The translations under genes were made by a program, and so were the position numbers. A stretch of 64,000 nucleotides of DNA from Pseudooceanicola nanhaiensis (lineage in GTDB: Bacteria > Pseudomonadota > Alphaproteobacteria > Rhodobacterales > Rhodobacteraceae). The notes below the pieces were generated by a model. That model was not told the DNA's origin. It saw nothing but the letters and a program-made list of their open reading frames with translations, and ran no database searches. The stretch lies in contig NZ_JAIUZP010000001.1 of assembly GCF_020171315.1 (NCBI RefSeq), positions 744,001-808,000 of the forward strand, written 5' to 3'. Each line of letters opens with the position of its first letter. The stretch's first letter is position 1. Shown here piece after piece: positions 32,030 to 60,473 of this stretch.

Positions 32030-32098
32030 GGGAGGGGGCGCTGCCCCCTCTTGGCCTGCGGCCAATTCACCCCCGGGATATTTTCGGCAAGAAAATGG
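32030..32098 (+). repeat. Copy A of a three-copy structured intergenic element
   Basis: Stem 1 is GAGGGGG (32032-32038) / CCCCCTC (32044-32050) with loop CGCTG. Stem 2 is TTGGCC (32051-32056) / GGCCAA (32060-32065) with loop TGC. The tail has CCCCCGGGATATTTTCGGC and AAGAAAATGG. It lies between the atoE-like gene and the convergent pgm. Copies B and C are at 46226 and 60405. Confidence 0.8.
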
Positions 32099-32123
32099 AT
32101 CGGGGGGAGGCGCTGAAAATGGA

Positions 32124-32149
32124 AAAGGCCGCCCCGGGGGGCGGCCTTT
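32124..32149. terminator. Bidirectional terminator between atoE-like gene and pgm
   Basis: AAAGGCCGCCC and GGGCGGCCTTT form an 11-bp stem with a tiny loop, flanked by T on either strand. It sits 24 bp after the pgm stop on the minus strand and also faces plus-strand transcription. Confidence 0.8.
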
Positions 32150-32172
32150 GCGTTTCTGGGTCGGGGCGGGGA

Positions 32173-33669
32173 TCAGAAGGTCTGATCGTAATCGCCGACG
32201 GCGGGTTCGGTGCGGATCACGTCGTCGATCTCCTTGAAGATCGCGCGCAGTTCCTCTTCGCTTTCCGAGCTTTCGCAGACCACGACGAGGTTCGGCGTGT
32301 TCGAGGAGGCCCGCACAAGGCCCCAGGAGCCGTTGTCGAGGATGACGCGGGCGCCGTTCACGGTGACCACTTCCTTGATCGCGCGGCCGGCGAAGCTGTC
32401 CCCGGCCTCACCCTTGGCGACGAGTTTCTGCACGAGGCGCTCGAGGATGTCGTATTTCTCGGTATCCGCGGCATAGGGCGACATGGTCGGCGTCGACCAG
32501 GTCTTGGGCAGGGCCTTGCGCAGGTCCGACATCTGCATGTCGGGGTTGCGGTCCATCAGTTTGCAGATCTCGACCGCGACGCGCATGCCGTCGTCATAGC
32601 CACGGCCCACCGGCTCGGCCATGAAGTAGTGGCCCGACTTCTCGAAGCCCGCCAGTGCACCCAGCTCGTGCACGCGGCGCTTCATGTGGGAGTGGCCGGT
32701 CTTCCAGTAGTCCGCCTTGACGCCATTCGCCTTCAGCTCGGGGTCGGAGGCGAAGAGGCCGGTGGATTTCACGTCCGCCACGAAGGTCGAGCCGGGGTAG
32801 AGCTTGGAGAGGTCGCGGGCCATGATGACACCGACCTTGTCGGCGAAGATTTCCTCGCCCTCGTCGTCCACCACGCCGCAGCGGTCGCCGTCGCCGTCGA
32901 AGCCGAGGGCAAAGTCCGCACCGGAGGCCTTCACGCTGTCGGCCATGTCATGGAGCATCTCCATGGCCTCGGGGTTCGGGTTGTAGTTCGGGAAGGTGTA
33001 ATCGAGCGTGTTGTGGCTCTCGACGACCTCGACGCCGAGGCGTTCGAAGAGCGCCGGCGCATAGGCGGCGGCGGTGCCGTTGCCGGTGGCGCAGACGACC
33101 TTCAGCTTGCGGGTCATTTTGAAGTCACCGACGAGGTCGTCCATATAGGCATCCCAGACGCCTTCGACGAATTCGTAGGAGCCGCCCTCGCGGGCCTCGC
33201 CCTTGCCTTCCAGCACGATGTCTTTCAGCTCGCCCATCTCGTCCGGGCCGTGGGTCAGGGGCATGTCGAAGCCCATCTTCACGCCGGTCCAGCCGTTCGG
33301 GTTGTGCGAGGCGGTGACCATGGCCACGGCGCAGCCGCCGAGGTGGAACGAGGAGAAATAGGCCATCGGCGTGATGCAGGGGCCGATGTCCTTCACCTTG
33401 ATGCCGGCCTGCATGAGGCCGAGGATCAGGGCGTTCTTGATCGCGAGGGAATAATCCCGGTAGTCGTTTCCGACCGCGATGACCGGCGCGACGCCGCGCT
33501 TGATCATCTGGGTGCCGAGGCCGAGGCCAAGGGCGGTCATGCCGGGCAGGTTGATCTCTTCGGGGTATTTCCAGCGGGCGTCATATTCCCGGAAGCCCGT
33601 CGGCTTGATCATCGGATCGCGCAGGAATTCCCAGGTGTTCGGCGTCACGTCGGCAATGGGTTTCGTCAC
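32173..33669 (-). CDS. Phosphomannomutase/phosphoglucomutase
   Basis: This 498-residue member of the alpha-D-phosphohexomutase superfamily interconverts hexose-1- and hexose-6-phosphates for glycan precursors. The phosphoserine loop is VTASHNPNGWTGVKM, the metal loop GFDGDGDRCGVVDDEG, and the sugar-binding loop includes EKSGHYFMAEPVGRGYDDG. The start codon is GTG at 33669 (no ATG fits MTKPIADVTPN). It lies 25 bp after kdsA on the same strand, which ties it to the capsule/Kdo cluster. Substrate preference (mannose or glucose) is not readable. Confidence 0.92.
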   Translation of the reverse strand: MTKPIADVTPNTWEFLRDPMIKPTGFREYDARWKYPEEINLPGMTALGLGLGTQMIKRGVAPVIAVGNDYRDYSLAIKNALILGLMQAGIKVKDIGPCITPMAYFSSFHLGGCAVAMVTASHNPNGWTGVKMGFDMPLTHGPDEMGELKDIVLEGKGEAREGGSYEFVEGVWDAYMDDLVGDFKMTRKLKVVCATGNGTAAAYAPALFERLGVEVVESHNTLDYTFPNYNPNPEAMEMLHDMADSVKASGADFALGFDGDGDRCGVVDDEGEEIFADKVGVIMARDLSKLYPGSTFVADVKSTGLFASDPELKANGVKADYWKTGHSHMKRRVHELGALAGFEKSGHYFMAEPVGRGYDDGMRVAVEICKLMDRNPDMQMSDLRKALPKTWSTPTMSPYAADTEKYDILERLVQKLVAKGEAGDSFAGRAIKEVVTVNGARVILDNGSWGLVRASSNTPNLVVVCESSESEEELRAIFKEIDDVIRTEPAVGDYDQTF

Positions 33670-33694
33670 TTCTGTCTCGCTTCAATGTTTTCTT

Positions 33695-34528
33695 TTACAA
33701 ACGGATCGGATCCGCCTTGGCCAGACGGTCGAAGGCCATCAGGCTGGCGATGAGTTTGTCCATCTCATGTAACGGGATCATGTTCGGCCCGTCGCTCGGC
33801 GCGTTGTCGGGATCCTCGTGGGTCTCGATGAAAACCGCGGCGATGCCCAGAGAAACGGCAGCCCGCGCCATGACGGGCGCGAATTCGCGCTGTCCGCCGG
33901 AAGAGCCGCCCTTGCCGCCGGGCTGCTGAACGGAATGCGTCGCGTCCATCACCACCGGGTAGCCGGTCTGCGCCATCTGGGGCAGGCCGCGCATGTCGGC
34001 GACGAGGGTATTGTAGCCGAAGGAGGTGCCGCGTTCGGTCAGCAGGATGCGTTCGTTGCCGGTGGAGGCGATCTTGGCCGCCACGTTGGGCATGTCCCAC
34101 GGCGCGAGGAACTGCCCCTTCTTGACGTTGATCGCGGCCCCGGTTTCGCCCGCGGCGAGCAGCAGGTCGGTCTGGCGGCAGAGGAAGGCGGGGATCTGCA
34201 TCACGTCCACGACCGACGCCACGGGGGCGCATTGCGCCTCGCTGTGGATGTCGGTCAGGACGGGGACGCCGAACTTTTCCTTCACGCCCGCGAGGACCTC
34301 GAGGCCCTTGTCCATGCCAAGCCCGCGCTTGCCCGAAAGCGAGGTGCGGTTGGCCTTGTCATAGGAGCCCTTGAAGATGAACTGCGCGCCGTGGGCCGCG
34401 CAGATGTCCTTCATGGTGCCTGCGATCATATGGGCGTGGTCTGCGCTTTCCAGCTGGCAGGGGCCCGCGATCACTGTCAGCGGGGCGTCGTTGCCCACCG
34501 AGAGCGCGCCAATCTCTACTGTTTTCAT
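33695..34528 (-). CDS. kdsA: 3-deoxy-8-phosphooctulonate synthase (KDO-8-phosphate synthase)
   Basis: This 277-residue aldolase condenses phosphoenolpyruvate with arabinose-5-phosphate to give Kdo-8-phosphate. Family stretches are TVIAGPCQLESADHAHMIA, FKGSYDKANRTSLSGKRGLG, VLTDIHSEAQCAPVASVVDV and PAFLCRQTDLL. The Cys in SEAQC-type position suggests, but does not prove, the metal-dependent class. It lies one base after kpsE and before pgm on the minus strand; this linkage implies Kdo for a capsule (group 2 poly-Kdo linker) as well as, or instead of, lipopolysaccharide. Confidence 0.95.
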   Translation of the reverse strand: MKTVEIGALSVGNDAPLTVIAGPCQLESADHAHMIAGTMKDICAAHGAQFIFKGSYDKANRTSLSGKRGLGMDKGLEVLAGVKEKFGVPVLTDIHSEAQCAPVASVVDVMQIPAFLCRQTDLLLAAGETGAAINVKKGQFLAPWDMPNVAAKIASTGNERILLTERGTSFGYNTLVADMRGLPQMAQTGYPVVMDATHSVQQPGGKGGSSGGQREFAPVMARAAVSLGIAAVFIETHEDPDNAPSDGPNMIPLHEMDKLIASLMAFDRLAKADPIRL

Positions 34529-34529
34529 A

Positions 34530-36602
34530 TCAGGAGGATACCTGTTCCCTCAGAATCGATGCCGTGAGCGAGATCATCAGGTAAATCCCGGAAAAGATCA
34601 AAAACGCCAGAACGGTGTTTTCGAACGCCCTCGGATAGGAGGGGTCTTCCGGGGGGACCGGACGCACGCTGGTGGTGAGGTAGCGCACCTGACGGTTCGC
34701 TTCCAGTTCCGTCTGCTTCTCGTTCTGGAGCGCCGATTGCAGGAACAGGTCCGCGGTGGCCAGATCCGCCTGTGCCATCTGGATTCGCGCCGCTTTCTCG
34801 GCAAGCGAAGAGTCGCCGGTGGTGGCGTCGGTCATCTTGGCGTTGAGGTCGTCAAGCATGCCCTGCAGCCGGTCCACGTCCCCGCGCGCGCCCTCGACCC
34901 GGGCCGAGTTCGGCCGCGCGTTGTCGAGCAGCGCCTGCAGTTGCAGCTGCTTCTCCTGAAGCTGGACCTCGATATTGTTGATCTGCGCCCGCAGGCCCGC
35001 GATGATCCCCTCCGGGTCCACGACAGAGCCTTCCTGCAACTGGACCAGCGCCTCCTGCGCCTCCCGGCGTTCGGCCTTGGCCCGTTCGAGGCTTTCGCGC
35101 GCGGTGGCCATGCCGTCCTCGCGCTTGCGGCGGCTGAGTTCGTCGACGCGGTCCTCGGCATAGCCGATCAGCGCTTCAGAGAATTGCGAGGCCACGGTGG
35201 GATCGGCGGCGACCACCTCCATGCGGATGACGCCCTCGGTCGGGTCGTAGCCGATCTTCACGTCCTTCTTGTAGACCTTGTAGGCCTCCTCGTTCGAGGG
35301 ATCGGGGCTCAGGCGCTGGATCGGGTCGATCCAGGGCTGGCTGAAGTGGCTCTTGAAGCCGACATCCCGGTCCAGCCGGACCATGGCGTCCTTGGACTGG
35401 AGGTAGGATTGCACCGCGATGCTGTCCTGGTTCGTGGCGAACTGGGTGCCGGAGAGCAGCCCGCCGAGGCCGCCGCCACCCTGGTTGTCGGCCTGAAGGA
35501 TCAGGAACTCGGACTTGGCGGCATACATCGGCGTGGCGACGCCGTAGAAATACCAGCCCGCGAGGATCGTGGGCGCGAAGACGAAGAAGGCGAGCCGGGT
35601 GAAGAGCAGGGCCGTCCGGCGGCGGCGGCGCTTGGCGATGTCCTTCTGGATCTCGCCGATCTCGCGCATGCGGCGCTGCATGGGCGAAGCAACCTCGGTC
35701 GAGGGCAGGAACTGGGCGTCCTGCTTGCCGGCCTCGACGGTCTGGGGCAGTTGCACCCGCGGCTCGGTGGGTTCGTCCTTCGGCTGGCCGTTGTTGACCA
35801 CGAGGTCCAGCATGTTGGTGCGCGAGAACGGGTCGATCCCGCGGGCGCGCAGCTGGCGCACCGCGTCGAAGTCCGAGGTCGCGGCGAGGCCATGCTTCTG
35901 GGCCACGCGCCGGGCCATGCGCAGCTGGCGGCCGGTGAGGCCTTCCTTGCGGATCGTGTCGATGTCCTGCTCGACCTTCACCCCGTGGGCCGAGGTCACC
36001 TCGCCATCCCGGGGCGGCGTGGCCGGGCGGGCGGCGGGCTTGGCGGGTTGCGTTCCCGGGGTGGCGGGCTGCGGACGGGCGGCCTGCGCGGCGGGGCGCG
36101 TGGGCTGGACCGGAGCCTGTGCGGTGGCCTGCGGTGTGGGGGGCGTTTGCGCCTGAGCCTGAGCCTGAGCCGGGGTCAGACGGCGCACTTGCACCGTCGC
36201 CGGGCGGACGGGCTGGCTGGGGGCCGCAGGTGTCGCGGGCGCCGCGGGGCGCGGAGGCACGGCGGCGCGGGGCGTCCCTGCCGGGGCCTCGGGTGCCTTG
36301 GCCTCGGCCGGCGGGGCGGGCTGTTCCGAGGGCGGCGCCTTTGCGGCGGCGGGCGGGGTCTTCGTCGCCTTCGCCGTCTCGGCCCGTTTCATCAGCGCGG
36401 CCCGCAGCTCCACCGGAGAGGCGGGGCGGTTCGAGGCGGGTTTCGCCTCACCGGCCGGAGGGGTCTCCACAACGGCCTCTGCGGTGCTCTCCGGCTCGAT
36501 CGGCGGGATCTGGGGCGCCTCGGCGGCACCGGGCTTGGCGCTGCCTTCGGACATCTCGCCACGGCGGAGACGGAATTTCTTAGCCTTGGGTTTCGTAGTC
36601 AT
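34530..36602 (-). CDS. Capsule polysaccharide export inner-membrane protein (KpsE family) with long Pro/Ala-rich N-terminus
   Basis: This 690-residue protein begins with about 300 residues of low-complexity Pro/Ala/Thr/Gln-rich and basic sequence, a region much longer than in classical KpsE. The recognisable part starts with a transmembrane helix (TRLAFFVFAPTILAGWYFYG, around residue 335-355), then a periplasmic domain (MYAAKSEFLILQADN, LQSKDAMVRLDRDVGF) with a long coiled coil (ERAKAERREAQEALVQLQEG). It ends in a second helix (AFENTVLAFLIFSGIYLMIS). This is the polysaccharide co-polymerase topology that connects the ABC transporter to the outer-membrane exporter. It overlaps kpsT by 23 bases. 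Confidence 0.88.
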   Translation of the reverse strand: MTTKPKAKKFRLRRGEMSEGSAKPGAAEAPQIPPIEPESTAEAVVETPPAGEAKPASNRPASPVELRAALMKRAETAKATKTPPAAAKAPPSEQPAPPAEAKAPEAPAGTPRAAVPPRPAAPATPAAPSQPVRPATVQVRRLTPAQAQAQAQTPPTPQATAQAPVQPTRPAAQAARPQPATPGTQPAKPAARPATPPRDGEVTSAHGVKVEQDIDTIRKEGLTGRQLRMARRVAQKHGLAATSDFDAVRQLRARGIDPFSRTNMLDLVVNNGQPKDEPTEPRVQLPQTVEAGKQDAQFLPSTEVASPMQRRMREIGEIQKDIAKRRRRRTALLFTRLAFFVFAPTILAGWYFYGVATPMYAAKSEFLILQADNQGGGGLGGLLSGTQFATNQDSIAVQSYLQSKDAMVRLDRDVGFKSHFSQPWIDPIQRLSPDPSNEEAYKVYKKDVKIGYDPTEGVIRMEVVAADPTVASQFSEALIGYAEDRVDELSRRKREDGMATARESLERAKAERREAQEALVQLQEGSVVDPEGIIAGLRAQINNIEVQLQEKQLQLQALLDNARPNSARVEGARGDVDRLQGMLDDLNAKMTDATTGDSSLAEKAARIQMAQADLATADLFLQSALQNEKQTELEANRQVRYLTTSVRPVPPEDPSYPRAFENTVLAFLIFSGIYLMISLTASILREQVSS

Positions 36603-37239
36603 AGAGTTGCTTCGCTTCTTCCAAGGTGTCGAACATATGCAATTGGCCGTTCATGAGAACAGCGGCCTCGCTGGCGAATTTCTGCAGGACCTGCGGCTGG
36701 TGCGAGACGATGACCACGGTGGTCGTCGCCAGCCGCTCGCGCAGGATTTCCCCGGCCTTGCGGTTGAACTCCACGTCGGTGGAGGAGGGCATCCCCTCAT
36801 CGATCAGGTACATGTCAAAGTCGAGCGCCAGCATCAGGGCAAAGCTGAACCGCGCCCGCATGCCCTGCGAATAGGTGCCGATCGGCTGCTCGAAGTAATC
36901 GCCGAGGTTGCACATCCAGCGGCAGAAGGCCTCGACGTAATCCGGGTCCAGCCCGTAGAGCCGCGCGATGTAGCGCGAGTTCTCGAAGGCGGAGTGGCGC
37001 GAGATGACGCCGCCCATGAAGCCGAGGGGGAAGGAGATCTTGCACATCCGGTGGATATGTCCCTCGTCGGGTTTCTCCAGCCCGGCCATCATGTTGATCA
37101 GGGTCGTCTTGCCGGTGCCGTTGGGCGCCAGAATGCCGAGCGAACGGCCAAGCTCGACCCGGAACGAGACCTGGTCGAGGATCACCTTGCGCTGTTTGCC
37201 TGTCCAGAAGGACTTGCTGACGTTCTCGAATTCGAGCAT
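36580..37239 (-). CDS. Capsule polysaccharide ABC transporter ATP-binding protein (KpsT family)
   Basis: This 219-residue ATPase energises export of a capsular polysaccharide. Walker A is ILAPNGTGKTTLINMMAGL, the signature YSQGMRARFSFALMLAL and Walker B FDMYLIDEGMPSS; the H-loop is VVIVSHQ. KpsT-specific features are the early MLEFENVSKSFWTGKQRKVI and ISRHSAFENSRYIARLYGLD. The permease partner KpsM is not next to it in this window. The ATG at 37239 is chosen because homology starts there. It is the first gene of the unit kpsT-kpsE-kdsA-pgm and divergent from the glycosylase gene. Confidence 0.9.
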   Translation of the reverse strand: MLEFENVSKSFWTGKQRKVILDQVSFRVELGRSLGILAPNGTGKTTLINMMAGLEKPDEGHIHRMCKISFPLGFMGGVISRHSAFENSRYIARLYGLDPDYVEAFCRWMCNLGDYFEQPIGTYSQGMRARFSFALMLALDFDMYLIDEGMPSSTDVEFNRKAGEILRERLATTTVVIVSHQPQVLQKFASEAAVLMNGQLHMFDTLEEAKQLYDYETQG

Positions 37240-37496
37240 TCGACGCTCCGGCTCTACCCTGCGTCCCCTTTGGCGAGGATCTGCTGTGGCTGCCCCATGG
37301 CACCTATTATGCGGCAGGAGTGTGCCGTATGCCAAGTTATCGCGGCGAAATTGTGGCTTGGTTAACCAAAGACCGCAGCAATCCTGTGACATCTCGGGGA
37401 TTGTTTCGCCGGCCGGGGGCTCTTGCGCAGGTTGCCGGGGGCCTTGCGCCCGGTGCCCGCGCTTGACCTGCTGCCGCGCCGGTGCAACCTGACGCC

Positions 37497-38105
37497 ATGC
37501 CAGATGACAGCCCTGCTCTCGTGCCCCCGCTGGTGGAGGAGATCCGCGCCTGCCGCGCCTGTGCGGCGCGGTTTGCCGCAACGCGTACCGCCCACCGGGC
37601 GCGTCCGGTGGTCTGGTTCCGGCCCGGGGCGCGGCTGCTGGTGGCGGGACAGGCGCCGGGGATGCGGGTGCATGAAAGCGGCAGGCCCTTCGACGACCGC
37701 TCCGGCGACCGGCTGCGGGACTGGATGGGGATCGACCGCGACACCTTCTATGACCTGACGCGGGTGGCGGTGGTGCCGATGGCCTTCTGCTTCCCGGGCT
37801 ATGACGCCAAGGGATCGGACCTGCCGCCGCCGCCGGTCTGTGCCGATCTTTGGCACGAGAGGGTCATGGCCGCGCTGCCGGGCCTCCGGCTGAAACTGCT
37901 GATCGGGGGCCATGCGCATCGCTGGCACCTTGGCGGGCGGATGGGGGTGACGGAGCGTGTCATGGGCTGGCGCGACCATCTGCCGGACGTCCTGCCCTTG
38001 CCTCATCCGTCGTGGCGCAATACGGCTTGGCTTCGCAGAAACCCATGGTTCGAGGACGCGCTGCTGCCCGTCCTGCGGCAGAAAGTGCAGGAGGCGCTGC
38101 AATGA
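37497..38105 (+). CDS. Uracil-DNA glycosylase family protein
   Basis: This 202-residue member of the UDG superfamily has motif A in LLVAGQAPGMRVHESGRPFD, the central VVPMAFCFPGYDAKG, LLIGGHAHRWHLG, and motif B PLPHPSWRN. The combination is close to the small family-4/5-like or uncharacterised UDG-fold proteins. Only two Cys (CRACAARF) precede the fold, so a four-Cys iron-sulfur cluster is not evident. Base-excision activity on uracil is therefore plausible but unproven. The start may also be the GTG five codons upstream. It overlaps the SseB gene by 4 bases. Confidence 0.75.
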   Translation: MPDDSPALVPPLVEEIRACRACAARFAATRTAHRARPVVWFRPGARLLVAGQAPGMRVHESGRPFDDRSGDRLRDWMGIDRDTFYDLTRVAVVPMAFCFPGYDAKGSDLPPPPVCADLWHERVMAALPGLRLKLLIGGHAHRWHLGGRMGVTERVMGWRDHLPDVLPLPHPSWRNTAWLRRNPWFEDALLPVLRQKVQEALQ

Positions 38106-38917
38106 CAGACACACCCGAGGCAGAGCTGACCCCGCTGGATCAGGCCCATGCCGCGATGGAGGCCGCCCCCGAGGACGACGCCGCGCGGCTGCGATTCTAC
38201 GAGCGGCTGGCCGACAACGAGCTGTTCCTGATGCTGACCGAGGAGGCCAAGCCCGAAACCGTCAGCCCGCATATCTTCGACCTCGGCGAGGGTGAGCAGG
38301 TGGCGCTGGTCTTCGACCGCGAGGAACGGCTCTCGGCCTTCAGCCCGGTGCCGGTGCCCTACGTCGCGTTGTCGGGCCGGGTGATCGCCGCGGCGCTTGC
38401 GGGGCAGGGGATCGGTCTGGGGGTGAACCTCGGCGTGGCGCCTTCCTCGATCCTGCTGCCACCCGAGGCGCTCGGCTGGCTGTCCGAGACGCTGGGCCAT
38501 GCGCCCGACGAGATGGAGGCCCGGATCGCCGAGGTCCATGCCCCGGGCAAGCTGCCCGAGGTGCTGCTGCAGGGGCTCGACGTGAAGCTGGCGATGGCGG
38601 CGGGCCTTGCGGTCTCCGCCGTGCTGGCCGAGGTCGTCTATGACAGCGGTGCGCGCGGCCACATGCTGGGCTTCATCGACGTGAAAGACGGGGCCGAGGC
38701 GCCGCTGGCCAAGGCCGCGGGCGAGGCGCTCGCCTTCTCTGGCATCGACGCGGGCTGGATGGATGTGGGCTTCTTCGCGGCCGAATCCTCTGTCGGTGCG
38801 GCACTGCTGCGGCGTGGGCTGAAGGTCGATCTGCCCGAGCCCGAGGTCCAGTCACCCGCCCGGGTGGAACGCATCGCCCCCGGCTCTGACCCCGACAAGC
38901 CGCCGATCCTGCGCTAA
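38102..38917 (+). CDS. SseB family protein
   Basis: This 271-residue soluble protein has an N-terminal SseB domain (PLDQAHAAMEAAPEDDAARL, FYERLADNELFLMLTEEA, ERLSAFSPVPVPYVALSGRV) and a second half related to the SseB C-terminal domain. SseB-like proteins are widespread and of unknown function outside rhodanese-linked contexts. It is translationally coupled to the preceding glycosylase-family gene (ATGA overlap). A small palindrome with arms CTGACA/TGTCAG follows at 38972-38987. Confidence 0.78.
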   Translation: MTDTPEAELTPLDQAHAAMEAAPEDDAARLRFYERLADNELFLMLTEEAKPETVSPHIFDLGEGEQVALVFDREERLSAFSPVPVPYVALSGRVIAAALAGQGIGLGVNLGVAPSSILLPPEALGWLSETLGHAPDEMEARIAEVHAPGKLPEVLLQGLDVKLAMAAGLAVSAVLAEVVYDSGARGHMLGFIDVKDGAEAPLAKAAGEALAFSGIDAGWMDVGFFAAESSVGAALLRRGLKVDLPEPEVQSPARVERIAPGSDPDKPPILR

Positions 38918-38971
38918 AAGCTGAGGAGTCCGCTCTGCCGTCCCACAAGCGATTGTGGGGCGCTTGGCCTG

Positions 38972-38987
38972 CTGACAATTCTGTCAG
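38972..38987 (+). terminator. Small hairpin after the SseB gene
   Basis: CTGACA and TGTCAG form a perfect 6-bp stem with loop ATTC and are followed by ATTTTC. It could terminate the glycosylase/SseB unit, or be an operator for the downstream secreted protein gene. Confidence 0.5.
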
Positions 38988-39100
38988 ATTTTCACGCCGC
39001 GCGTTGAAAAAAGACTGGAAATACGGTAAGAAGCGACCAGTTCCTAAAGTGGGGCGGGACCGGGGAAAACATCCGGGCCGCAGTCGAGCAGAGGCAGAAA

Positions 39101-39412
39101 ATGAACAAGACCATCCTGGGGGCCGCCGTTCTGGCGATGACCCTCGCCAACGTCGCTACATCCGCAAACGCCGGTCCGATCAGCCGGGCCTGCATGAGCT
39201 CCGACCGGGGCGCCCGGTCGTCGGGGCTGTGCAGCTGCATCCAGAAGGTCGCCAACAAGACCCTGAACTGGACCGATCAGCGCGAAGCGGCCAAGTTCTT
39301 CCGTGAACCGCAGCGGGCGCAGGATGTGCGCATGTCCACGACCGCGCGCGACAACGAGTTCTGGTCGCGCTACAAGACCTTCGGCGAGGCCGCCGAGCGC
39401 ACCTGCAGCTGA
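39101..39412 (+). CDS. Small secreted protein with four cysteines (often labelled arginine transporter)
   Basis: This 103-residue protein has a clear signal peptide (MNKTILGAAVLAMTLANVAT) with probable cleavage after SANA at residue 24, leaving a mature domain of about 79 residues with Cys at 31, 44, 46 and 102. The core SGLCSCIQKVANKTLNWTDQ and FWSRYKTFGEAAERTC is a family I recognise from Rhodobacteraceae genomes, where it is frequently named arginine transporter without evidence; no transport domain is present. It is probably a disulfide-bonded periplasmic protein of unknown role. It is monocistronic, with its own terminator. Confidence 0.75.
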   Translation: MNKTILGAAVLAMTLANVATSANAGPISRACMSSDRGARSSGLCSCIQKVANKTLNWTDQREAAKFFREPQRAQDVRMSTTARDNEFWSRYKTFGEAAERTCS

Positions 39413-39419
39413 TCCGACG

Positions 39420-39443
39420 ACGCCCCCGCCCCGGGGGCGTTTT
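39420..39443 (+). terminator. Rho-independent terminator after the small secreted protein
   Basis: ACGCCCCC and GGGGGCGT pair over 8 bp around a 5-nt loop, followed by TTTT, 7 bp after the stop codon. Confidence 0.85.
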
Positions 39444-39469
39444 CATGTCCGGGGTCCGTTGCGCCGCGC

Positions 39470-39925: not shown

Positions 39926-39966
39926 GATGTTGTGATAGGGCAGCACCAGCGTGGGGAAAAGACCTG

Positions 39967-40653: not shown

Positions 40654-40740
40654 TACGGGCAGGACAGCCCCGCCAATGCGCAGGCCCTTGACCTTAAGGC
40701 CCGTGCCGCCTAACCGGGCCGAAACCCGCAGGAGCACGCC

Positions 40741-41613: not shown

Positions 41614-41738
41614 TCCGCCGCCCGGCCCGGGCGTGGCCTGACGCTGATCCGATTCAGGGCCCGGGCAATCCCTATTTTGGCCGCAATCGTCGCCGATAAA
41701 GCCCCCTGACCGGTGGGGGCCGGCTCGAAGAGGTCAAA

Positions 41739-46090: not shown

Positions 46091-46420
46091 GGACGGCTGA
46101 GCGGCGTCGCGCGGGATCGGGCGGGGGGGCGTCTGACCGATATTCGCAGTGCCCTCTGAAGCCGGACGCTACGGCCAGGTGAGACATCGCCCCCTTTGAT
46201 CGGGGAAACTCTAAACGATGGAAGTGGGAGGGGCGCTGCCCCCGTCGCGTGCCGCGACACCCCCGGAGTATTTTGGGAAAGATGAAGGCTGGGCTTATGG
46301 GGGCGGGTTGTTGCAAATCGCCCACCGGACGCGGGCGTCCTGCGCGGGGTGCTTGCGGTGGGCCGCGAGGGATGGTTCCTTGGCCGCAGAGCCGAGCTGA
46401 ACCAGACGAGGACCCCGCCC
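46091..46420. other. 330-bp intergenic region between the ruv-linked gene and ybgC
   Basis: No coding frame is convincing. It contains copy B of the structured intergenic element (46226-46288). Upstream of that, around 46120-46147, a G-run followed by CGTCTGACCGATATTCGC resembles a decayed copy of the same element. The ybgC promoter should lie after 46290, but no consensus is clear. Confidence 0.55.
46226..46288 (+). repeat. Copy B of the three-copy structured intergenic element
   Basis: Stem 1 is GGGGC (46230-46234) / GCCCC (46238-46242). Stem 2 is GTCGCG (46244-46249) / CGCGAC (46253-46258) with loop TGC, the same loop as copy A but a different stem sequence. The tail reads CCCCCGGAGTATTTTGGG and AAAGATGAAG. 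It lies upstream of ybgC on the same strand. Confidence 0.8.
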
Positions 46421-50758: not shown

Positions 50759-50785
50759 AAGCATAAGAACGAGGCACGAGACGAC

Positions 50786-51316: not shown

Positions 51317-51339
51317 ATCATCCAGTCAAGGAGATGTCG

Positions 51340-53438: not shown

Positions 53439-53519
53439 ACCTGACGGCGTGAAGCTTATTTAAACCGGATAGCCCCTGTGATACGAGCCGGGGGCAACCG
53501 GAATTTGGGGAGACCTTCC

Positions 53520-55427
53520 TTGGGCACTGCGAAAAACTTCGCCTTCTGGATCGTGCTGCTGATGCTGATCGTGGCGCTGTTCAATCTCTTCAGCGGGTCG
53601 GGCAGCACGATGCAGAGCCGCGAGATCAGCTACTCTGACTTCGTTTCGGCTGTGAACGACGATCGCGTCAGTTCGGCCACGATCGATGGCGAGCAGGTGC
53701 GTTACCGGGGGACGGACGGTCAAGACTACGTGACCATCAAGCCGCAGGACAGCGAAGTGACCCAGCTGCTCCTCGACAACAATGTCCCCGTGACCGCCAA
53801 GGCGCAGGAAGAAAGCGGCTTCCAGGCGTTCATCATCTCGCTGCTGCCGATCCTTCTGCTGATCGGCGTGTGGATCTATTTCATGAACCGGATGCAGGGC
53901 GGCGGCAAAGGCGGGGCCATGGGCTTCGGCAAGTCGCGCGCCAAGCTGCTGACCGAGAAGCACGGCCGCGTCACCTTCGACGATGTCGCCGGCATCGACG
54001 AGGCCAAGGAAGAGCTGGAGGAGATCGTCGAATTCCTCCGCAATCCGCAGAAATTCTCGCGTCTCGGCGGCAAGATCCCCAAAGGCGCGCTGCTGGTGGG
54101 CCCTCCGGGCACCGGTAAGACGCTGCTGGCGCGTGCGATTGCAGGCGAGGCGGGCGTGCCCTTCTTCACCATCTCGGGCTCCGACTTCGTCGAGATGTTC
54201 GTGGGTGTCGGTGCCTCCCGTGTCCGCGACATGTTCGAACAGGCCAAGAAGAACGCCCCCTGCATCGTCTTCATCGACGAGATCGACGCCGTGGGCCGTC
54301 ACCGTGGCGCAGGCTATGGCGGGGGCAACGACGAGCGTGAGCAGACCCTCAACCAGCTGCTGGTGGAGATGGACGGCTTCGAGGCCAACGAGGGTGTGAT
54401 CATCCTCGCGGCGACCAACCGTCGTGACGTTCTCGACCCCGCGCTGCTGCGCCCGGGCCGCTTCGACCGTCAAGTCACCGTGCCGAACCCCGACATCAAG
54501 GGCCGCGAGAAGATCCTCGGCGTCCATGCCCGCAAGACCCCGCTGGGCCCCGACGTCGATCTGCGCATCATCGCGCGCGGCACCCCGGGCTTCTCCGGTG
54601 CGGACCTGTCGAACCTCGTGAACGAGGCCGCGCTGATGGCCGCCCGTGTCGGCCGCCGCTTCGTGACCATGGTTGATTTCGAGAACGCCAAGGACAAGGT
54701 CATGATGGGGGCCGAGCGTCGCTCGATGGTCCTCACGCAGGACCAGAAGGAAAAGACCGCCTACCACGAGAGCGGCCACGCCGTCGTCGGCCTGACCCTG
54801 CCCAAGTGCGATCCGGTCTACAAGGCGACGATCATCCCCCGTGGCGGTGCCCTCGGCATGGTGGTCTCGCTGCCCGAGATCGACCGCCTGAACTGGCACA
54901 AATCCGAGTGCGAGCAAAAGCTGGCCATGACCATGGCGGGCAAGGCCGCCGAGATCATGAAGTACGGCCCTGACGAAGTGTCGAACGGCCCCGCCGGCGA
55001 CATTCAGCAGGCCTCCAGCCTCGCCCGTGCGATGGTGCTGCGCTGGGGCATGTCGGACAAGGTCGGAAACGTGGACTACGAACAGGCCCACGAAGGCTAC
55101 ATGGGCAACGGTGCCGGCGGCTTCTCCGTCTCGGCCCATACCAAGGAGCTGATCGAGGAAGAGGTGAAGCGCCTCATCGACGAGGCCTACGAGTGGGCCT
55201 ACAAGATCCTCGAAGAGCAGAAGGACGAGTGGGAGCGCCTCGCGCAGGGCCTGCTGGAATACGAAACCCTGACCGGCGACGAGATCAAGCGCGTCATGAA
55301 GGGTGAGCCTCCGCAGAGCCCGGACGAGGATGACAGCTCCGACACCGGCAGCACCTCGGTCACGGCCATCCCCAAGACCAAGCCGCGCGGCAAGCCCGGC
55401 GGGATGGAGCCGGAACCCAGCGTCTGA
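53520..55427 (+). CDS. ftsH: ATP-dependent zinc metalloprotease FtsH
   Basis: This 635-residue membrane-bound AAA+ protease degrades misfolded membrane proteins and regulators such as sigma-32 and LpxC. TM1 is [19 protein letters not shown] and TM2 [19 protein letters not shown]. Walker A is [20 protein letters not shown] at about residue 190, Walker [21 protein letters not shown], and the zinc site HESGH at about residue 416. The conserved start motif GTAKNFAF is best reached from TTG at 53520, which has GGGGAGA upstream; a GTG at 53478 would add 14 residues. Confidence 0.95.
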
Positions 55428-56209
55428 TGACCGACACTGCGAAAGATTGGAGTCCCGGGGCCTATGACAGGTTCCGGGACGTTCGTTTGAGGCCCGCGCT
55501 GGACCTGATCGCCCGGCTGGAGGCCCCCCGGGGCCCGGTGGTGGACCTCGGCTGCGGCTCCGGCGCCGCCGGTCCTGCCTTGCGGTCGCTTGCAGGAACA
55601 GCCCGCCTGATTGGCCTCGACAGTTCGCCCGCGATGCTGTCCAAGGCCGCCGCGACAGAGGCCTACGACCTGTTGGAAGAAGCCGACATCGCCCGCTGGC
55701 GGCCGGATGCCGCGCCCGCGCTGATCTTCTCCAATGCCGCGCTGCACTGGCTGGGGGATCATGCCACGCTGCTGCCGCGCCTTGCGGGGCTGCTGGCCCC
55801 GGGCGGCACGCTGGCGGTGCAGGTGCCGCATCAGAACAACGCGCCCTCGCACCGGATCTGGCATTCGCTGGTGGAAGAGCATTTCCCCGGTCGCTTCGAT
55901 CCCGCCACGGCGCCGGGCATCGAACGCCCTGCGACCTATCACGCGATGCTCTCGCCGCTGGGGCAACTCGACCTCTGGGAAGTGGATTACTACCAGGTGC
56001 TGCCCAAGGCAGAGGAGGGCCACCCGGTGCGGCTCTTCACCCAGTCGACCTTTGCGCGGCCCGTGCTGGACAGCCTGCCAGAGGACGAGCAGGCCCAACT
56101 GATCGCGCTCTACGACGAGGTGATCGAGGCCGCCTATCCGCGCTCGGCCGATGGCTCTGTCCTGTTCCCCTTCCGGCGGCTCTTCTTCACCCTGCGACCT
56201 GCTGGCTGA
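55427..56209 (+). CDS. SAM-dependent methyltransferase, trans-aconitate 2-methyltransferase-like
   Basis: This 260-residue class I methyltransferase begins with the Tam hallmark DWSPGAYDRFRDVRLRPALD. Motif I is VVDLGCGSGAAGPALRSLAG, with IGLDSSPAMLSKAA and ALIFSNAALHWLGDHATLLP after it; the W-L-x-D-H stretch is typical of trans-aconitate methyltransferases, which detoxify an inhibitor of aconitase. The gene starts on the last base of the ftsH stop (TGATG). The exact substrate is inferred from homology. Confidence 0.85.
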   Translation: MTDTAKDWSPGAYDRFRDVRLRPALDLIARLEAPRGPVVDLGCGSGAAGPALRSLAGTARLIGLDSSPAMLSKAAATEAYDLLEEADIARWRPDAAPALIFSNAALHWLGDHATLLPRLAGLLAPGGTLAVQVPHQNNAPSHRIWHSLVEEHFPGRFDPATAPGIERPATYHAMLSPLGQLDLWEVDYYQVLPKAEEGHPVRLFTQSTFARPVLDSLPEDEQAQLIALYDEVIEAAYPRSADGSVLFPFRRLFFTLRPAG

Positions 56210-56396
56210 CGCTGGCAGGCTGGCCGTGATCCCTTGATGGGCGCAGGCCGGTCCGGGCGCGGCCGGGGGCTGCTGCACGACAGGCCCTAGACCCATCCGG
56301 AGCCGGACGGCCGCTCGTCCTAAGGCGGGGCAGGGGTTGACACTCCGCCCCCCGTGCCGGTTCATCGGGCCTCATTCCACGGACCGAGGACAGGAT

Positions 56397-57002
56397 ATGC
56401 CCGCGCTCAAACCCACCGATTTCACCGCCCGTATCGTCTGGCTCGGCCGTGTGCCCTCGCGCGAGGCGGCGCTCGACTCGCAGCCCGTGCAATCGCTGGC
56501 GCTGAGCTTCGCGGGGCCCGAGGGTGAGGATCACGGCGGGCTGACCCGCCCGTCCTGCAGCCGCGTCCTGTCGCAATATCCCCGCGATACGGAGATCAGG
56601 AACGTCCGGCAACTGTCGGTGATCTCTCAGGAAGAACTGGATGCCATCGCCACGGACATGGGCCTCGAAAGCCTCGATCCGGCGTGGCTGGGGGCGACGC
56701 TGGTGATCGCGGGCATCCCGGATTTCTCCCTCGTGCCGCCGTCCTCGCGGCTACAGGGCGCAAACGGGGCGACGATCACCCTTGATATGGAAAACCGTCC
56801 CTGTCAGCTTCCGGCCAAGGTCATCGCCGAACATCACCCCGAACAGGCCCGTCTCTTCAAACGGGCGGCAACGGGGCGGCGGGGCGTGACAGCATGGGTG
56901 GAGCGGGAAGGGACGTTTACTCTCGGAGAAGAGCTGCGCCTGCATGTGCCGGACCAGCCGGTCTGGCCACATATGCAGGCGGCGCGGGGGGCTCTCGTCT
57001 GA
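56397..57002 (+). CDS. MOSC domain-containing protein
   Basis: This 201-residue protein has one MOSC beta-barrel domain (found in molybdenum-cofactor sulfurases and YiiM/YuaD-type proteins). Visible landmarks are FAGPEGEDHGGLTRPSCSRV with the conserved Cys, TEIRNVRQLSVISQEEL, LGATLVIAGIPDFSLVPPSS and LDMENRPCQLPAKVIA. Such proteins deliver sulfur or bind Moco; the target is unknown. A long leader (187 bp) precedes it, with no gene visible. The ATG at 56397 follows GAGGACAGG. Confidence 0.83.
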   Translation: MPALKPTDFTARIVWLGRVPSREAALDSQPVQSLALSFAGPEGEDHGGLTRPSCSRVLSQYPRDTEIRNVRQLSVISQEELDAIATDMGLESLDPAWLGATLVIAGIPDFSLVPPSSRLQGANGATITLDMENRPCQLPAKVIAEHHPEQARLFKRAATGRRGVTAWVEREGTFTLGEELRLHVPDQPVWPHMQAARGALV

Positions 57003-57004
57003 CC

Positions 57005-57079
57005 TCAGCCGAGCAGAAGCGCGGCGCCGAGAAGGGTCAGGGCGAAAGATGCGTGGATAACGAGCGTTGCGGCTTTCAT
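57005..57079 (-). CDS. 24-residue hydrophobic micropeptide
   Basis: A complete short frame runs from ATG at 57079 to TGA at 57005, preceded by GGGAGA about 8 bases upstream. The peptide starts MKAATLVIHASF and ends in a Leu/Ala/Gly helix long enough to span the membrane once. It has no lipobox. The next gene on the same strand is far away, so it would be a stand-alone transcript lying antisense in the gap between the MOSC gene and fhs. Coding capacity is supported only by the ribosome-binding site and composition. Confidence 0.42.
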   Translation of the reverse strand: MKAATLVIHASFALTLLGAALLLG

Positions 57080-57206
57080 CTTGTGTCTCCCTTTGTCATC
57101 TGTCCCCCCCAACGCGCCAAAGCGACCACGGGTTCCATGAGTCTCCGATCCGGGAGGCCCCCATGGCCCGATTGCCCCCCTCGCGAGGCGTCAGAAGGAC
57201 AGGAAC

Positions 57207-58883
57207 ATGACTGCGAAGACCGACATTGAAATCGCCCGCGCCGCCTCGAAGCAGCGCATTCAGGCCATCGGCGCCAAGCTCGACATTCCCGAGGAGGCGC
57301 TGCTGCCCTATGGCCACGACAAGGCCAAGATCGCGCAGGACTTCATCGCCGGGCTCGCCGATCGGCCCGATGGCAAGCTGATCCTCGTGACCGCCATCAA
57401 CCCCACGCCCGCGGGTGAGGGCAAGACGACGACGACGGTCGGTCTGGGCGACGGGCTCAACGCCATTGGCAAGCGCGCGGCGATCTGCATCCGCGAGGCC
57501 AGCCTCGGCCCCTGCTTCGGCATGAAGGGCGGGGCGGCGGGCGGCGGCTATGCGCAAGTCGTGCCGATGGAGGAGATGAACCTCCACTTCACCGGCGATT
57601 TCCACGCCATCACCTCGGCCCACAACCTGCTGGCGGCCATGGTGGACAACCACGTCTACTGGGGCAACGAGCTGGAGATCGACACCCGTCGCATCACCTG
57701 GCGCCGGGTCATGGACATGAACGACCGCGCGCTGCGCGACGTGGTGACCTCGCTGGGCGGTGTCGCCAACGGCTATCCGCGCCAGAGCGGCTTTGACATC
57801 ACCGTGGCCTCCGAGGTCATGGCGATCCTCTGCCTTGCGACCTCGCTGGACGATCTTCAGGCACGGCTGGGGCGGATCATCGTGGGCTACCGCCGCGACC
57901 GGACCCCGGTGACGGCGGCGGACGTGAAGGCGGACGGCGCGATGACGGTGCTGCTGAAGGACGCGATGCAGCCGAACCTCGTCCAGACGCTGGAGAACAA
58001 CCCGGCCTTCGTCCACGGCGGGCCCTTCGCCAATATCGCCCATGGCTGCAACTCGGTCATCGCGACCCGCGCGGCGCTGAAGCTGGCCGATTACGTGGTG
58101 ACCGAGGCAGGCTTCGGCGCCGACCTCGGGGCAGAGAAGTTCTTTGACATCAAGTGCCGCAAGGCGGGGCTGGAACCGGCGGCGGTGGTGCTGGTGGCCA
58201 CGGTCCGGGCGCTGAAGATGAACGGCGGCGTGGCCCGCGCGGACCTCGGCGCCGAGGACGTGGCGGCGGTGCGTGCCGGATGTGCCAATCTGGGCCGGCA
58301 TATCGAGAATCTGCAAGGCTACGGCGTGCCTGTCGTTGTAGGGATCAACCATTTCACCGGCGACACCGATGCGGAAGTTGAAGAAGTGAAAGCCTTCTGC
58401 GCCGAGCACGGCGTCGAGGCGCTGCTCTGCACCCATTGGGCCGAGGGCTCCAAGGGGATCAAGGCGCTGGCGGAGAAGGTGGCGGCGCTGGCTGATGGCG
58501 GCACCGCGCAGTTCGAGACGCTCTATCCCGATGCCATGCCGTTGGCCGAGAAGATCGAGACCGTGGCCAAGCGGATTTACCGCGCGGGCACCGTCCAGAT
58601 GGGCGATGCGATCCGCAAGCAACTGGCGGAATGGGAAGAGGCCGGGCACGGCGACCTGCCGGTCTGCATGGCGAAGACGCAGTACAGCTTCTCGGCCGAT
58701 CCGACCTTGCGCGGCGCGCCCGAGGGGCATGACCTGCCGGTGCGCGAGGTGCGCCTTTCGGCCGGGGCGGGCTTCGTGGTGGCGATCTGCGGAGAGATCA
58801 TGACCATGCCCGGCCTGCCGTCGAAACCGGCCGCCGAAGCCATCCGCCTGAACGACATGGGCCAGATCGAGGGGCTCTTCTGA
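57207..58883 (+). CDS. fhs: Formate-tetrahydrofolate ligase
   Basis: This 558-residue enzyme makes 10-formyl-tetrahydrofolate from formate, THF and ATP, important in the C1 metabolism of Roseobacter-group bacteria. The ATP site is [20 protein letters not shown], followed by [60 protein letters not shown] and the C-terminal [20 protein letters not shown]. All are well conserved. The start lies close to AAGGAC. The stop shares a base with the start of the next gene. Confidence 0.97.
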
Positions 58884-59194
58884 TGCGCATGACCCGCAAG
58901 GCGCCGAGCGAGGTGCAGACGATGCCCGAACTGCGGGCGCAGATCGACGCATTGGACCGTGACCTGATCGCCCTGCTGGCCGAACGGCAGCGCCACATCG
59001 ACCGGGCGGCGCAGCTCAAGCCCGCGCTCGGCTGGCCCGCACGGATCGACGAGCGGGTCGAGGATGTCGTGTCCAAGGTCGAGGCGACGGCGGCGGAACT
59101 GGGGTTCGACCCGGCGCTGGCCGGGGCGCTCTGGCGGCAGATGATCGACGAGGCCATCGCCCGCGAAGAGCGGCTGATGGCCGGGCGGGGCTGA
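58883..59194 (+). CDS. Chorismate mutase (AroQ class)
   Basis: This 103-residue all-helical protein has the AroQ pattern: MPELRAQIDALDRDLIALLA, ERQRHIDRAAQLKPALGWPA, DERVEDVVSKVEATAAELGF and LWRQMIDEAIAREERLMAGR. It would convert chorismate to prephenate for phenylalanine/tyrosine synthesis; isochorismate-pyruvate lyase is the alternative in this fold. It is fused transcriptionally to fhs by a 1-base stop/start overlap, an unexpected partner. Confidence 0.86.
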   Translation: MRMTRKAPSEVQTMPELRAQIDALDRDLIALLAERQRHIDRAAQLKPALGWPARIDERVEDVVSKVEATAAELGFDPALAGALWRQMIDEAIAREERLMAGRG

Positions 59195-59195
59195 A

Positions 59196-59217
59196 GACGG
59201 CCGCCGCCGGGGCCGTC
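59196..59217. terminator. Hairpin between convergent chorismate mutase and thioesterase genes
   Basis: GACGGCC and GGCCGTC form a 7-bp stem that reaches into the stop codon of the thioesterase gene. There is no clear T-run, but it is well placed between converging units. Confidence 0.5.
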
Positions 59218-59641
59218 AGCCCGCAGGGACCGGCGTGCAGGTGCCCTGCAGCAGGGCGATCAGCTTCTCCTGACCGCCGGTCACGGCCATGACCTCGGCT
59301 GAGACCACCACGAGGCGACGCCCGGCATGGACCACGCGGCCCCGGGCCACCAGCCTGTCGCCGATGCCGGGGCGCATGAGGTTGATCTTCATCTCGGAGG
59401 TCACGACCTCCATCGTGTCGTCCATGGTGGAGAGCGCGGCATAGCCCGCCGCGCTGTCGCCGATGGCGAAGGCGAGCGCAGCATGGGCAAAGCCGTGCTG
59501 CTGCTGCGATCCGGGCAGGATCGGGGCGGAGATCGCCACAGCACCCGGCGCGACGCTCGCCAGCTCCGCCCCCAGCGTTTTCATCATGTTCTGCCGGTCG
59601 AAACTGGCGCGGATACGGGCGGTGAGGGCGTCGTCGGTCAT
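59216..59641 (-). CDS. PaaI family hotdog thioesterase
   Basis: This 141-residue hotdog-fold acyl-CoA thioesterase has the catalytic helix segment SQQQHGFAHAALAFAIGDSA (H-G-x-x-x instead of the common H-G-G), followed by VVTSEMKINLMRPGIGDRLV and GRVVHAGRRLVVVSAEVMAV. The substrate may be phenylacetyl-CoA-like or another acyl-CoA. It lies 20 bp after pdeM on the same strand and is probably cotranscribed with it, though a functional link is not obvious. Confidence 0.85.
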   Translation of the reverse strand: MTDDALTARIRASFDRQNMMKTLGAELASVAPGAVAISAPILPGSQQQHGFAHAALAFAIGDSAAGYAALSTMDDTMEVVTSEMKINLMRPGIGDRLVARGRVVHAGRRLVVVSAEVMAVTGGQEKLIALLQGTCTPVPAG

Positions 59642-59661
59642 GGTCTCTTTCAGCGTCTTTC

Positions 59662-60324
59662 TCAGCGGGGCATGGGGATGGGGCGCGGCGTTTCGCCGGT
59701 GAGGATGGCGAGCGCCTCGGGGCGCATGAGGCCGGTGAGGGCCGCGTCCGAGCTGTGCAGCCCGCCGGTATAGGTGCCGTAGGCAGGCAGGATCAGCCGG
59801 TCGCTGTCGAGCAGGAAGGCCCGGCGCGTGACGGTCCGGCCCCCGGCGCTGATCCGGGCCTTGGGGTGGTAATGCCCCGACACCTCGCCCGAGGCCCCGG
59901 TCCGCGCGATGTGGCGGAAGGTCAGCGGCGGGGCGGGCAGGGCGTTCAGATGGCTGCCGCCCATGTCCACGGGGCCCGGATCGTGGTTGCCCTCGATCCA
60001 GACCCAGCGGCGCCCGGCCTGCAGGCGGGCGATCCAGGCGCGGGTCTTGTCGTCGAGGGCATGAGCGGCCTCGGTATCATCGAAGCTGTCGCCGAGGCAG
60101 ACCACGGTTGTGGCCTGGGTGAGCGCCAGGTCCCGGTCGAGGCGGGCCAGCGTGTCGATTGTCTCGTAGGGGGGCAGGGTGCCGCCACCGCGCCGCGCCG
60201 TGCGTTCGGACTTGCCGAGGTGCAGGTCGGAGACGCAGAGCAGCCGCCGGTCCGGCCAGTGCAGGGCGCCGGAGCCAAGCGCCACGAGGCGCGCGCCGGC
60301 GAGGGTGAAAGCGTAGTGGCTCAT
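59662..60324 (-). CDS. pdeM: Ligase-associated DNA damage response endonuclease PdeM
   Basis: This 220-residue metallophosphoesterase has the metal-site motifs LLCVSDLHLGKSERTARRGG, VVCLGDSFDDTEAAHALDDK, VWIEGNHDPGPVDMGGSHL and GHYHPKARI. PdeM is one member of a four-gene set (helicase, DNA ligase, exonuclease, PdeM) known by comparative genomics as a ligase-associated DNA damage response system. The helicase of that set is the next gene upstream; ligase and exonuclease are not in the window. The ATG at 60324 is where homology begins. Confidence 0.88.
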   Translation of the reverse strand: MSHYAFTLAGARLVALGSGALHWPDRRLLCVSDLHLGKSERTARRGGGTLPPYETIDTLARLDRDLALTQATTVVCLGDSFDDTEAAHALDDKTRAWIARLQAGRRWVWIEGNHDPGPVDMGGSHLNALPAPPLTFRHIARTGASGEVSGHYHPKARISAGGRTVTRRAFLLDSDRLILPAYGTYTGGLHSSDAALTGLMRPEALAILTGETPRPIPMPR

Positions 60325-60404
60325 GCGCCCTTGTTGGCGGGCGCCGGGGGATTTGGCAAGCGGGTCGGGGCGGTGCGGAGAGGGGGGCGCGTGACACGGG
60401 CGGG

Positions 60405-60473
60405 GTGGGGGGGCGTCTGCCCCCCTTGGCCCTGACGGGCCAATTCCCCCCGAGGATATTTGGGAAACGGAAA
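60405..60473 (+). repeat. Copy C of the three-copy structured intergenic element
   Basis: Stem 1 is GGGGGGC (60408-60414) / GCCCCCC (60419-60425) with loop GTCT. Stem 2 is TTGGCCC (60426-60432) / GGGCCAA (60437-60443) with loop TGAC. The tail has CCCCCGAGGATATTTGGG and AAACGGAAAG. It lies between pdeM and the helicase, antisense to both genes. Confidence 0.8.

Follow-up and report, generated by a model that had tools for sequence, protein, structure and literature searches.

A family of dispersed hairpin elements that resembles REP repeats, without their usual tag and transposase, is described here from Pseudooceanicola nanhaiensis. It was recognised from three copies in the analysed window of 64,000 nucleotides. 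Because the copies are nearly confined to the 3' ends of genes, their most likely role is in 3'-end formation. The elements are accordingly read as an untagged, RAYT-less, REP/BIME-like hairpin mosaic that would form or protect mRNA 3' ends in either orientation. We give this reading, whose mechanism we infer, a probability of roughly 45 %.

The copies at 32030-32098 (A), 46226-46288 (B) and 60405-60473 (C), all on the plus strand, share the order of parts given in the first-pass annotation: a constant G/C hairpin (H1), a variable hairpin (H2), CCCCCGG with an RTATTT box, and a purine-rich tail. Further hairpins are often found beyond H1. In copy A, H1 (GGGGGC-GCT-GCCCCC, 32034..32048) was matched by the covariance model R1 and H2 (TTGGCC-TGC-GGCCAA, 32051..32065) was read from the sequence; CCCCCGG with the box GATATTTT and a purine-rich tail of the CAAGAAAATG type follow at 32070..32097. 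Copy B has an H1 of five pairs with the loop GCT and the outermost A/C unpaired (46229..46243), an H2 of GTCGCG-TGC-CGCGAC (46244..46258), and CCCCCGG with the box AGTATTTT and a tail of the AAAGATGAAG type (46260..46287). Copy C carries the GTCT-loop subtype of H1 (60407..60425), an H2 of TTGGCCC-TGAC-GGGCCAA (60426..60443, read from the sequence), and the box CCCCCCGAGGATATTT with a tail of the AAACGGAAA type (60446..60473). The genes on either side of it are both on the minus strand, and the tail is directed towards the stop of the gene 60483-62927, ending 9 nt from it. With up to three mismatches, the motif CCCCCGGNATATTTTNGGNAAGA occurs twice in the window, in A and B, and not at all in 100 shuffles; copy C deviates from it by one more C (GAGGATATTT). 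The folding energy of copy A is lower than that of shuffled sequence (z -3.8 on the plus and -3.0 on the minus strand), whereas copies B (0.8 and 0.3) and C (-0.5 and -1.1) have little or no such advantage. Only A stands out by folding energy; the evidence for the element lies in its recurring sequence and in covariation. Plus-strand RNA of copies A and C favours alternative pairings, and the double hairpin is predicted for the minus-strand RNA of all three.

In the covariance-model search that the annotation had proposed, B (75.9 bits, one of the 20 member sequences of R1), A (49.6) and C (30.6, like A outside R1) scored far above the next-best match in the window (12.6 bits, E 0.08). The genome contains at least 125 R1 matches at E<=0.01. 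Since only subsets of the candidates were scored (150 of 10,672 in this genome, at most 46 per genome in the family survey), all copy numbers are lower bounds. The element is present in 95 of the 120 Rhodobacteraceae genera sampled. Among laboratory members of the family, Ruegeria pomeroyi DSS-3 and Paracoccus denitrificans each carry a plasmid-borne match. In a class-wide sample of 289 genomes, matches were found in three, all Rhodobacteraceae and P. nanhaiensis among them, and none outside the family. These results bear out the earlier view of a REP-like structured element of Rhodobacteraceae; the copies are neither just three without covariation nor exclusively ordinary terminators, the two cases that the annotation had named against itself. 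The 28 copies on the contig of A, B and C are spaced at 2.7 to 124 kb; of these, 10 are on the plus and 18 on the minus strand. The 14.2 kb interval between the three copies therefore looks like chance, as had been allowed for, and a periodic spacing was rejected; the common strand, which had been taken as meaningful, likewise looks accidental. A phage origin was also rejected: a single 60-base query matched none of 50,697 phage records. Eight matches occurred in viral contigs, several of them close to contig ends.

For gene context, 91 of the 125 matches were studied, which remained from 100 model matches in 90 loci after removal of eight duplicates from overlapping loci and one weak second match. 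Genes were called by a custom script using a hexamer score trained on the window. All but one of the 91 copies are intergenic, 41 of them between convergent, 44 between tandem and five between divergent genes, and the tandem copies are randomly oriented (21 sense, 23 antisense). Gaps of at least 80 bp with an element were convergent in 39, tandem in 42 and divergent in five cases, compared with 17, 79 and 41 neighbouring gaps without one, this background being drawn from loci fetched for their elements. Convergent gaps are thus enriched (odds ratio 5.9, p 7e-8) and divergent gaps depleted (odds ratio 0.14, p 6e-6). In other genomes, 56 copies were convergent, 93 tandem and six divergent.

According to the proposed mechanism, the element would be transcribed within 3' UTRs, where its stacked G/C hairpins could halt 3'-to-5' exonucleases and slow RNA polymerase. 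The hairpins might thereby set the 3' ends of mRNAs, make these more stable and reduce read-through from one convergent gene into the other, whichever way the element is oriented. On the strand that is read tail-first, the tail is unpaired, C/U-rich and G-poor; in many copies it closely follows the stop codon of the gene, where it could also be a loading site for Rho. In P. nanhaiensis, an antisense stop lies within 15 nt on the tail side in 29 of 64 copies and on the other side in nine of 62, and the stop distances of the two sides differ (p 5e-8). In other genomes, the corresponding counts are 42 of 101 and 38 of 104, with about equal median distances of 27 and 22.5. A directional rut role is therefore weak, and the adjacency of tail and stop was dropped as a directional signal. 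Tail positions 5-16 are 78 % purine compared with 52 % in the flank (n=196), a count that leaves out tail-picked loci and includes many loci found via R1, which itself contains the tail. It is doubtful that untagged, transposase-free composite hairpins are a general 3'-end device of Rhodobacteraceae, with an antisense C/U-rich Rho-loading tail, transcription ended both ways, and tails and modules swapped by gene conversion in concerted evolution at fixed positions.

The annotation had denied that the element is a simple terminator, and in one respect this holds: neither hairpin is followed by a U-tract on the motif strand, since H1 leads into H2 and H2 into CCCCCGGRTATTT-type sequence. For the opposite strand, the sequence past H1 was assessed only as part of whole gaps. 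The role at 3' ends that the annotation had played down is, by contrast, now the most likely one. The elements resemble intrinsic terminators in having G/C hairpins past stop codons and differ from them in that the same constant sequence recurs at dispersed sites, several hairpins follow one another and both orientations occur. Terminator-like hairpins with a T-tract were found at 15 of 78 convergent gene ends with an element and at 13 of 34 without (p 0.056). The opposite trend at tandem ends (5/42 with, 6/79 without) speaks against the 3'-end reading, as do the canonical terminators near some copies, including copy A. It is also counted against this reading that, in the available part of PMC7866481, a MEME search of the 15 nt leading up to PNPase-sensitive 3' ends in R. 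sphaeroides yielded no motif.

The covariation of H2 is strong. Across 218 copies with 125 distinct stems, 1443 Watson-Crick pairs and 32 mispairs were counted, leaving out the 26 of 244 double-hairpin elements that gave no stem. The earlier observation that the second stems change in sequence and keep their pairing holds across these copies, with covariation above its controls. RNAalifold missed H2 on alignment A2, and the MAFFT alignment A3, containing 40 of 45 copies, placed two stem classes out of register. R1 was built from 20 of these 40 in a single register, and pairing was therefore favoured in the first covariation count; the count of 218 copies and 1475 pairs is independent of this selection. 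None of the 1475 pairs is a G-T pair on the motif strand, compared with 16 among 613 pairs in 68 terminator-like hairpins from the same DNA. This counts against the 3'-end reading because the absence is odd for an RNA stem that needs stability alone.

Near-pure Watson-Crick pairing would suit an element acting as DNA, which is possible, if improbable. Its palindromes would either extrude or be occupied by a protein that organises the nucleoid or controls topology (gyrase or IHF-like), and would absorb supercoils between genes, with CCCCCGG-RTATTT as a putative binding site. Such supercoil uptake has been proposed for enterobacterial BIMEs, which are bound by gyrase, IHF or Pol I. The enrichment in convergent gaps, the random orientation in tandem gaps and the constant unpaired box, which is partly due to the choice of search motif, are consistent with it. 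The avoidance of divergent gaps argues against it, though promoter harm would equally explain this avoidance.

The wobble-type mispairs of H2, 12 A-C and no G-T, look as if pairing of the minus-strand transcript mattered, and both hairpins fold in 61 of 75 copies on the minus strand and in 44 of 75 on the plus strand. A small-RNA family or strand-specific processing sites, for example for RNase E or RNase III, could account for this. Such a role is nevertheless quite unlikely: orientation to genes is random, the A-C copies are unlinked to minus-strand genes (seven face one, four do not, one is unclear), and seven of the 12 A-C mispairs fall on the second pair of the stem, four of them as the identical C-A change. 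In addition, Rfam 15 gave no match at its gathering score in the window, and its one match at E<=1 in five loci, RF00126, reached 19.3 bits against a gathering score of 80. A strand-specific RNA element was rejected, as the excess of A-C over G-T did not track gene orientation.

At least for two closely related species, the copies are best explained by inheritance at fixed positions. All nine checked positions are common to G003, the one close congener in which positional sharing was examined. The core is identical there at 410 of 427 sites (96 %), compared with 336 of 400 (84 %) in the H1-side flank (p 4e-9), and the stretches around the nine positions are mostly 84-96 % identical. At two of the nine sites the tail was swapped. 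The 86-bp module adjoining copy B (46135..46220, plus strand), single in the P. nanhaiensis genome, precedes the copy A orthologue of G003 in an 81 %-identical version. Tails and modules may be traded among copies via gene conversion or recombination, and this exchange would keep the family alike.

A module that is shared between one element locus in one species and a different one in the other would also fit a mainly selfish, non-autonomous repeat, spread by a putative mobilising enzyme, with gene ends as the only places where it is tolerated and with hairpins kept perfect through template-switch correction or the transposition mechanism. Patchy copy number points the same way: the strict motif was found in 91 of 198 genomes, at 0 to 68 occurrences per genome surveyed and with chance matches included (one match in each of 6/198 genomes in the reversed control; L045, for example, lacks H1), and a separate count gave up to 80 in one congener. 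So do the two bases before TATTT, which tend to be genome-typical in the places listed, tail-to-tail pairs in places, and the apparent lack of an element, by eye, in the 190 nt downstream of the orthologous stop beside copy A in 15 of 17 other congeners, a lack that also counts against the 3'-end reading. We consider this origin unlikely, since the nine shared positions and the conserved core indicate constrained copies and no clean empty site with target duplication was seen. Of the 120 family genomes, 12 encode the Y1 (RAYT) transposase domain PF01797, P. nanhaiensis not being one of them; the search was positive in five of 14 control genomes, including E. coli. With no Y1 transposase in 108 of 120 genomes, P. 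nanhaiensis included, a RAYT-driven REPIN was rejected.

Rhodobacteraceae include abundant marine bacteria and phototrophic model organisms. With over 100 copies placed at gene ends, shared positions and strong stem covariation, the family provides many natural replicates that could test what REP-like repeats do without a RAYT to spread them. Knowledge of the element could also aid annotation, as copies could be mistaken for sRNAs or terminators.

No published name for the hairpin element was found in the literature searched, which was mostly freely accessible and included the available parts of PMC7866481, PMC5107571, PMC2573895, PMC3733652 and PMC3116915. As far as the latter two go, REP, BIME and REPIN sequences are short palindromes, repeated many times between genes and lying beside 3' ends. 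With its high-copy palindromes in convergent and tandem gaps, mosaic clusters and some inverted pairs, the element is like them. Extra hairpins amount to 6.2 per kb in element gaps, 1.4 in other gaps and 0.1-0.2 in shuffled sequence, and extra perfect ones occur in 44 of 86 element gaps and 26 of 137 others, so that palindromic modules are combined in clusters as in BIMEs. By eye, the same H1 occurs with differing H2 stems and tails. The GTAG tag of REP and REPIN is not constant, GTAG or CTAC occurring anywhere in five of 91 copies. Inverted doublets of the REPIN type are not the rule: by pattern, two of 91 copies have a tail-to-tail partner, one of them doubtful, and one tight pair is found among the 125 matches (C4:343429/343513). 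A few degenerate partners were seen by eye, and pairs occur in two relatives. Unlike REP and REPIN, the element has two dissimilar hairpins, together with a box and tail that form a long, constant and unpaired stretch.

The CGTC-tagged palindromic repeats, as presented in the accessible text of PMC3733652, are alphaproteobacterial, have no transposase association and adjoin gene 3' ends, all of which the element shares. They are stated for all alphaproteobacterial orders; the Rhodobacterales names searched are absent from that text, its figure species lists lying outside this scope. Unlike them, the P. nanhaiensis element has no constant unpaired CGTC tag, CGTC occurring in 24 of 91 copies on the motif strand and in 11 on the other. 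On the motif strand it mostly lies, by eye, where the end of H1 meets a GTC stem. RIME and the A, B and C mosaic elements of Rhizobium and Sinorhizobium, described in the part of PMC2573895 that was available as palindromic repeats between genes that are conserved in structure and have no known function, belong to a different bacterial order and are likened by description only; with them the element shares its palindromic, intergenic nature and its conserved structure.

All three hairpin repeats that the first-pass annotation had described, on the plus strand at 32030-32098 (copy A), 46226-46288 (copy B) and 60405-60473 (copy C), were seen again on re-reading the sequence, with the same layout. 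In order, the element consists of a hairpin H1, GGGGGC-(2-5 nt)-GCCCCC, a hairpin H2 with a variable stem, the sequence CCCCCGG, a box with TATTT as its last bases, and a tail rich in purines. R1, a covariance model built from 20 copies in the source genome and relatives in genus and family, with copy B included, gave 75.9 bits for copy B, 49.6 for A and 30.6 for C, and no other match in the window exceeded 12.6 bits. At least 125 R1 matches at E<=0.01 were obtained in the source genome (150 candidates scored), where an exact motif search gave 15 matches and the reversed control 0. The folding energy was clearly better than that of shuffled sequences for copy A alone, copies B and C being hardly or no better than their own shuffles. 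Copy A is separated from the next stop codon by a hairpin of canonical terminator-like form, AAAAGGCCGCCCC...GGGGCGGCCTTT, at 32123-32149. Elsewhere in the window, ARAGORN called a tRNA-Gly(gcc) at 37542-37638, which at 97 bases is unusually long for glycine and may be false.

The tail varies among genomes, and several subtypes occur inside one genome. Among 91 copies in the source genome, 32 carry AACAGTGGATG, 26 AAAGATGA, 12 CAAGAAAATG, six AAACG(G)AAA and two GCGAAAGATG, while 13 tails fall outside these subtypes. The 326 distinct elements include 244 with a double and 80 with a single hairpin. Further palindromes often lie beyond H1, and extra hairpins reach 6.2 per kb in gaps with the element, compared to 1.4 in other gaps and 0.1-0.2 in shuffled sequence. 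At locus L244, 3460-3665, six different palindromes, counted by eye with H1 and H2, follow one another in one intergenic gap; the element comes first, directly after a stop codon.

In a 20-row alignment with rows selected for one shared register, 95% of cells pair compared to 52-64% in slid controls, and both-side changes occur in 5 of 6 H2 pairs. Without register selection, 125 distinct H2 stems were obtained from 218 of the 244 double-hairpin elements, the other 26 giving no stem. A stem was found in 93/106 elements of other genomes and 75/76 of the source genome, compared to 20 and 15 shuffled segments. The 218 stems contain 1443 Watson-Crick pairs, 12 A-C, 0 G-T and 20 other mispairs, whereas 68 terminator-like hairpins of the same DNA contain 563 Watson-Crick pairs, 16 G-T, 11 A-C and 23 others; from this comparison, H2 pairing is kept nearly without wobble. 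The 12:0 split of A-C and G-T has a two-sided binomial probability of 0.0005, with seven of the 12 at the second stem pair and not all independent. On folding, both hairpins form in 61/75 copies on the minus strand and 44/75 on the plus strand. Split and folding hint at the minus strand; the split did not match the orientation of neighbouring genes.

Of the 91 source-genome copies, 90 are intergenic: 41 lie between convergent genes, 5 between divergent genes and 44 between tandem genes, 21 of these in sense and 23 in antisense orientation. The remaining copy is weak and overlaps with a predicted gene. Among gaps of at least 80 bp, those with the element are convergent in 39 cases, tandem in 42 and divergent in 5, compared to 17, 79 and 41 for neighbouring gaps without it. 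Copies in other genomes lie in 56 convergent, 93 tandem and 6 divergent gaps, with three at contig edges and three overlapping a predicted gene. Six inspected plasmid regions comprised three annotated tandem gaps, one convergent gap and two lacking annotation at the match. At convergent ends, terminator-like hairpins were fewer with the element (15/78) than without it (13/34; p 0.056), which did not hold for tandem ends (5/42 vs 6/79).

The strict motif is present in 18/22 genomes of the genus and 91/198 of the family, while the reversed control gave one match in 1/22 and one in each of 6/198. At E<=0.001, R1 matched in 95/120 family genera. At E<=1e-5, it matched 3/289 genomes of a class sample, all of the same family and including the source genome; one listed family member had no match at this threshold. 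Matches were also present in 19 plasmid records, every one from a genus that we assign to Rhodobacteraceae in the broad sense. One of these matches coincides with an annotated gene for a hypothetical protein, and annotation is missing from two of the listed records. Among the 80 loci listed, from a total of at least 120, contigs with motif and tail are named as Rhodobacteraceae or unclassified alphaproteobacteria with two exceptions, Enemella and a Flavobacteriia MAG. These two element-bearing contigs, labelled Enemella evansiae (L311) and Flavobacteriia (L336), are perhaps mislabelled or contaminated. Eight IMG/VR viral contigs (L074-L081) also carry the motif, several near the contig end, perhaps in host flanks of proviruses.

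In three stretches syntenic between the source genome and a close congener (G003), outside which copies B and C fall, all nine R1-found source copies have a congener copy at the same place, and the congener has one extra weak match (L255 6366, E 0.007). Identity is 96% (410/427) in the core, 84% (336/400) in the H1-side flank, with copy A omitted owing to an insertion, and 83% (104/126) in the tail, the tail subtype differing at copy A and L246:18484. An upstream hairpin at L244:3466 has changed at both positions of one pair, from C-G to A-T, and a tail-to-tail pair at L244:13963 shows two matched changes with unmatched ones alongside. The gene adjacent to copy A is present in 17 further congeners. 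By eye, 15 of these show no element in the first 190 nt past the stop codon of this gene, and the other two have a tail-to-tail pair there; in none of the 17 was the upstream neighbour of copy A matched beside it. A module of about 86 bp (46135-46220), single-copy in the source genome, precedes copy B and is absent there before copy A. Its 81% identical counterpart in G003 (L083 1413-1498) precedes the orthologue of copy A, and the module has perhaps travelled along with an element.

A RAYT-associated REPIN was ruled out, as there is no tag, doublets are few and the Y1 transposase is absent from the source genome. The element failed the test for the tag of CGTC repeats, and an intrinsic terminator was rejected on sequence. 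The available text of PMC3733652 describes tagged REPs as likewise placed at 3' ends, CGTC repeats as lacking a transposase and further untagged families as likely to exist; it contains none of the Rhodobacterales names looked for. For Rhodobacter sphaeroides, PMC7866481 concludes that structured RNA may halt PNPase decay, but MEME found no motif in the 15 nt before PNPase-sensitive ends. This neither proves nor disproves the proposed role in mRNA 3'-end formation or protection. Judged by its anatomy and location, the element resembles REP/BIME repeats in its probable working.
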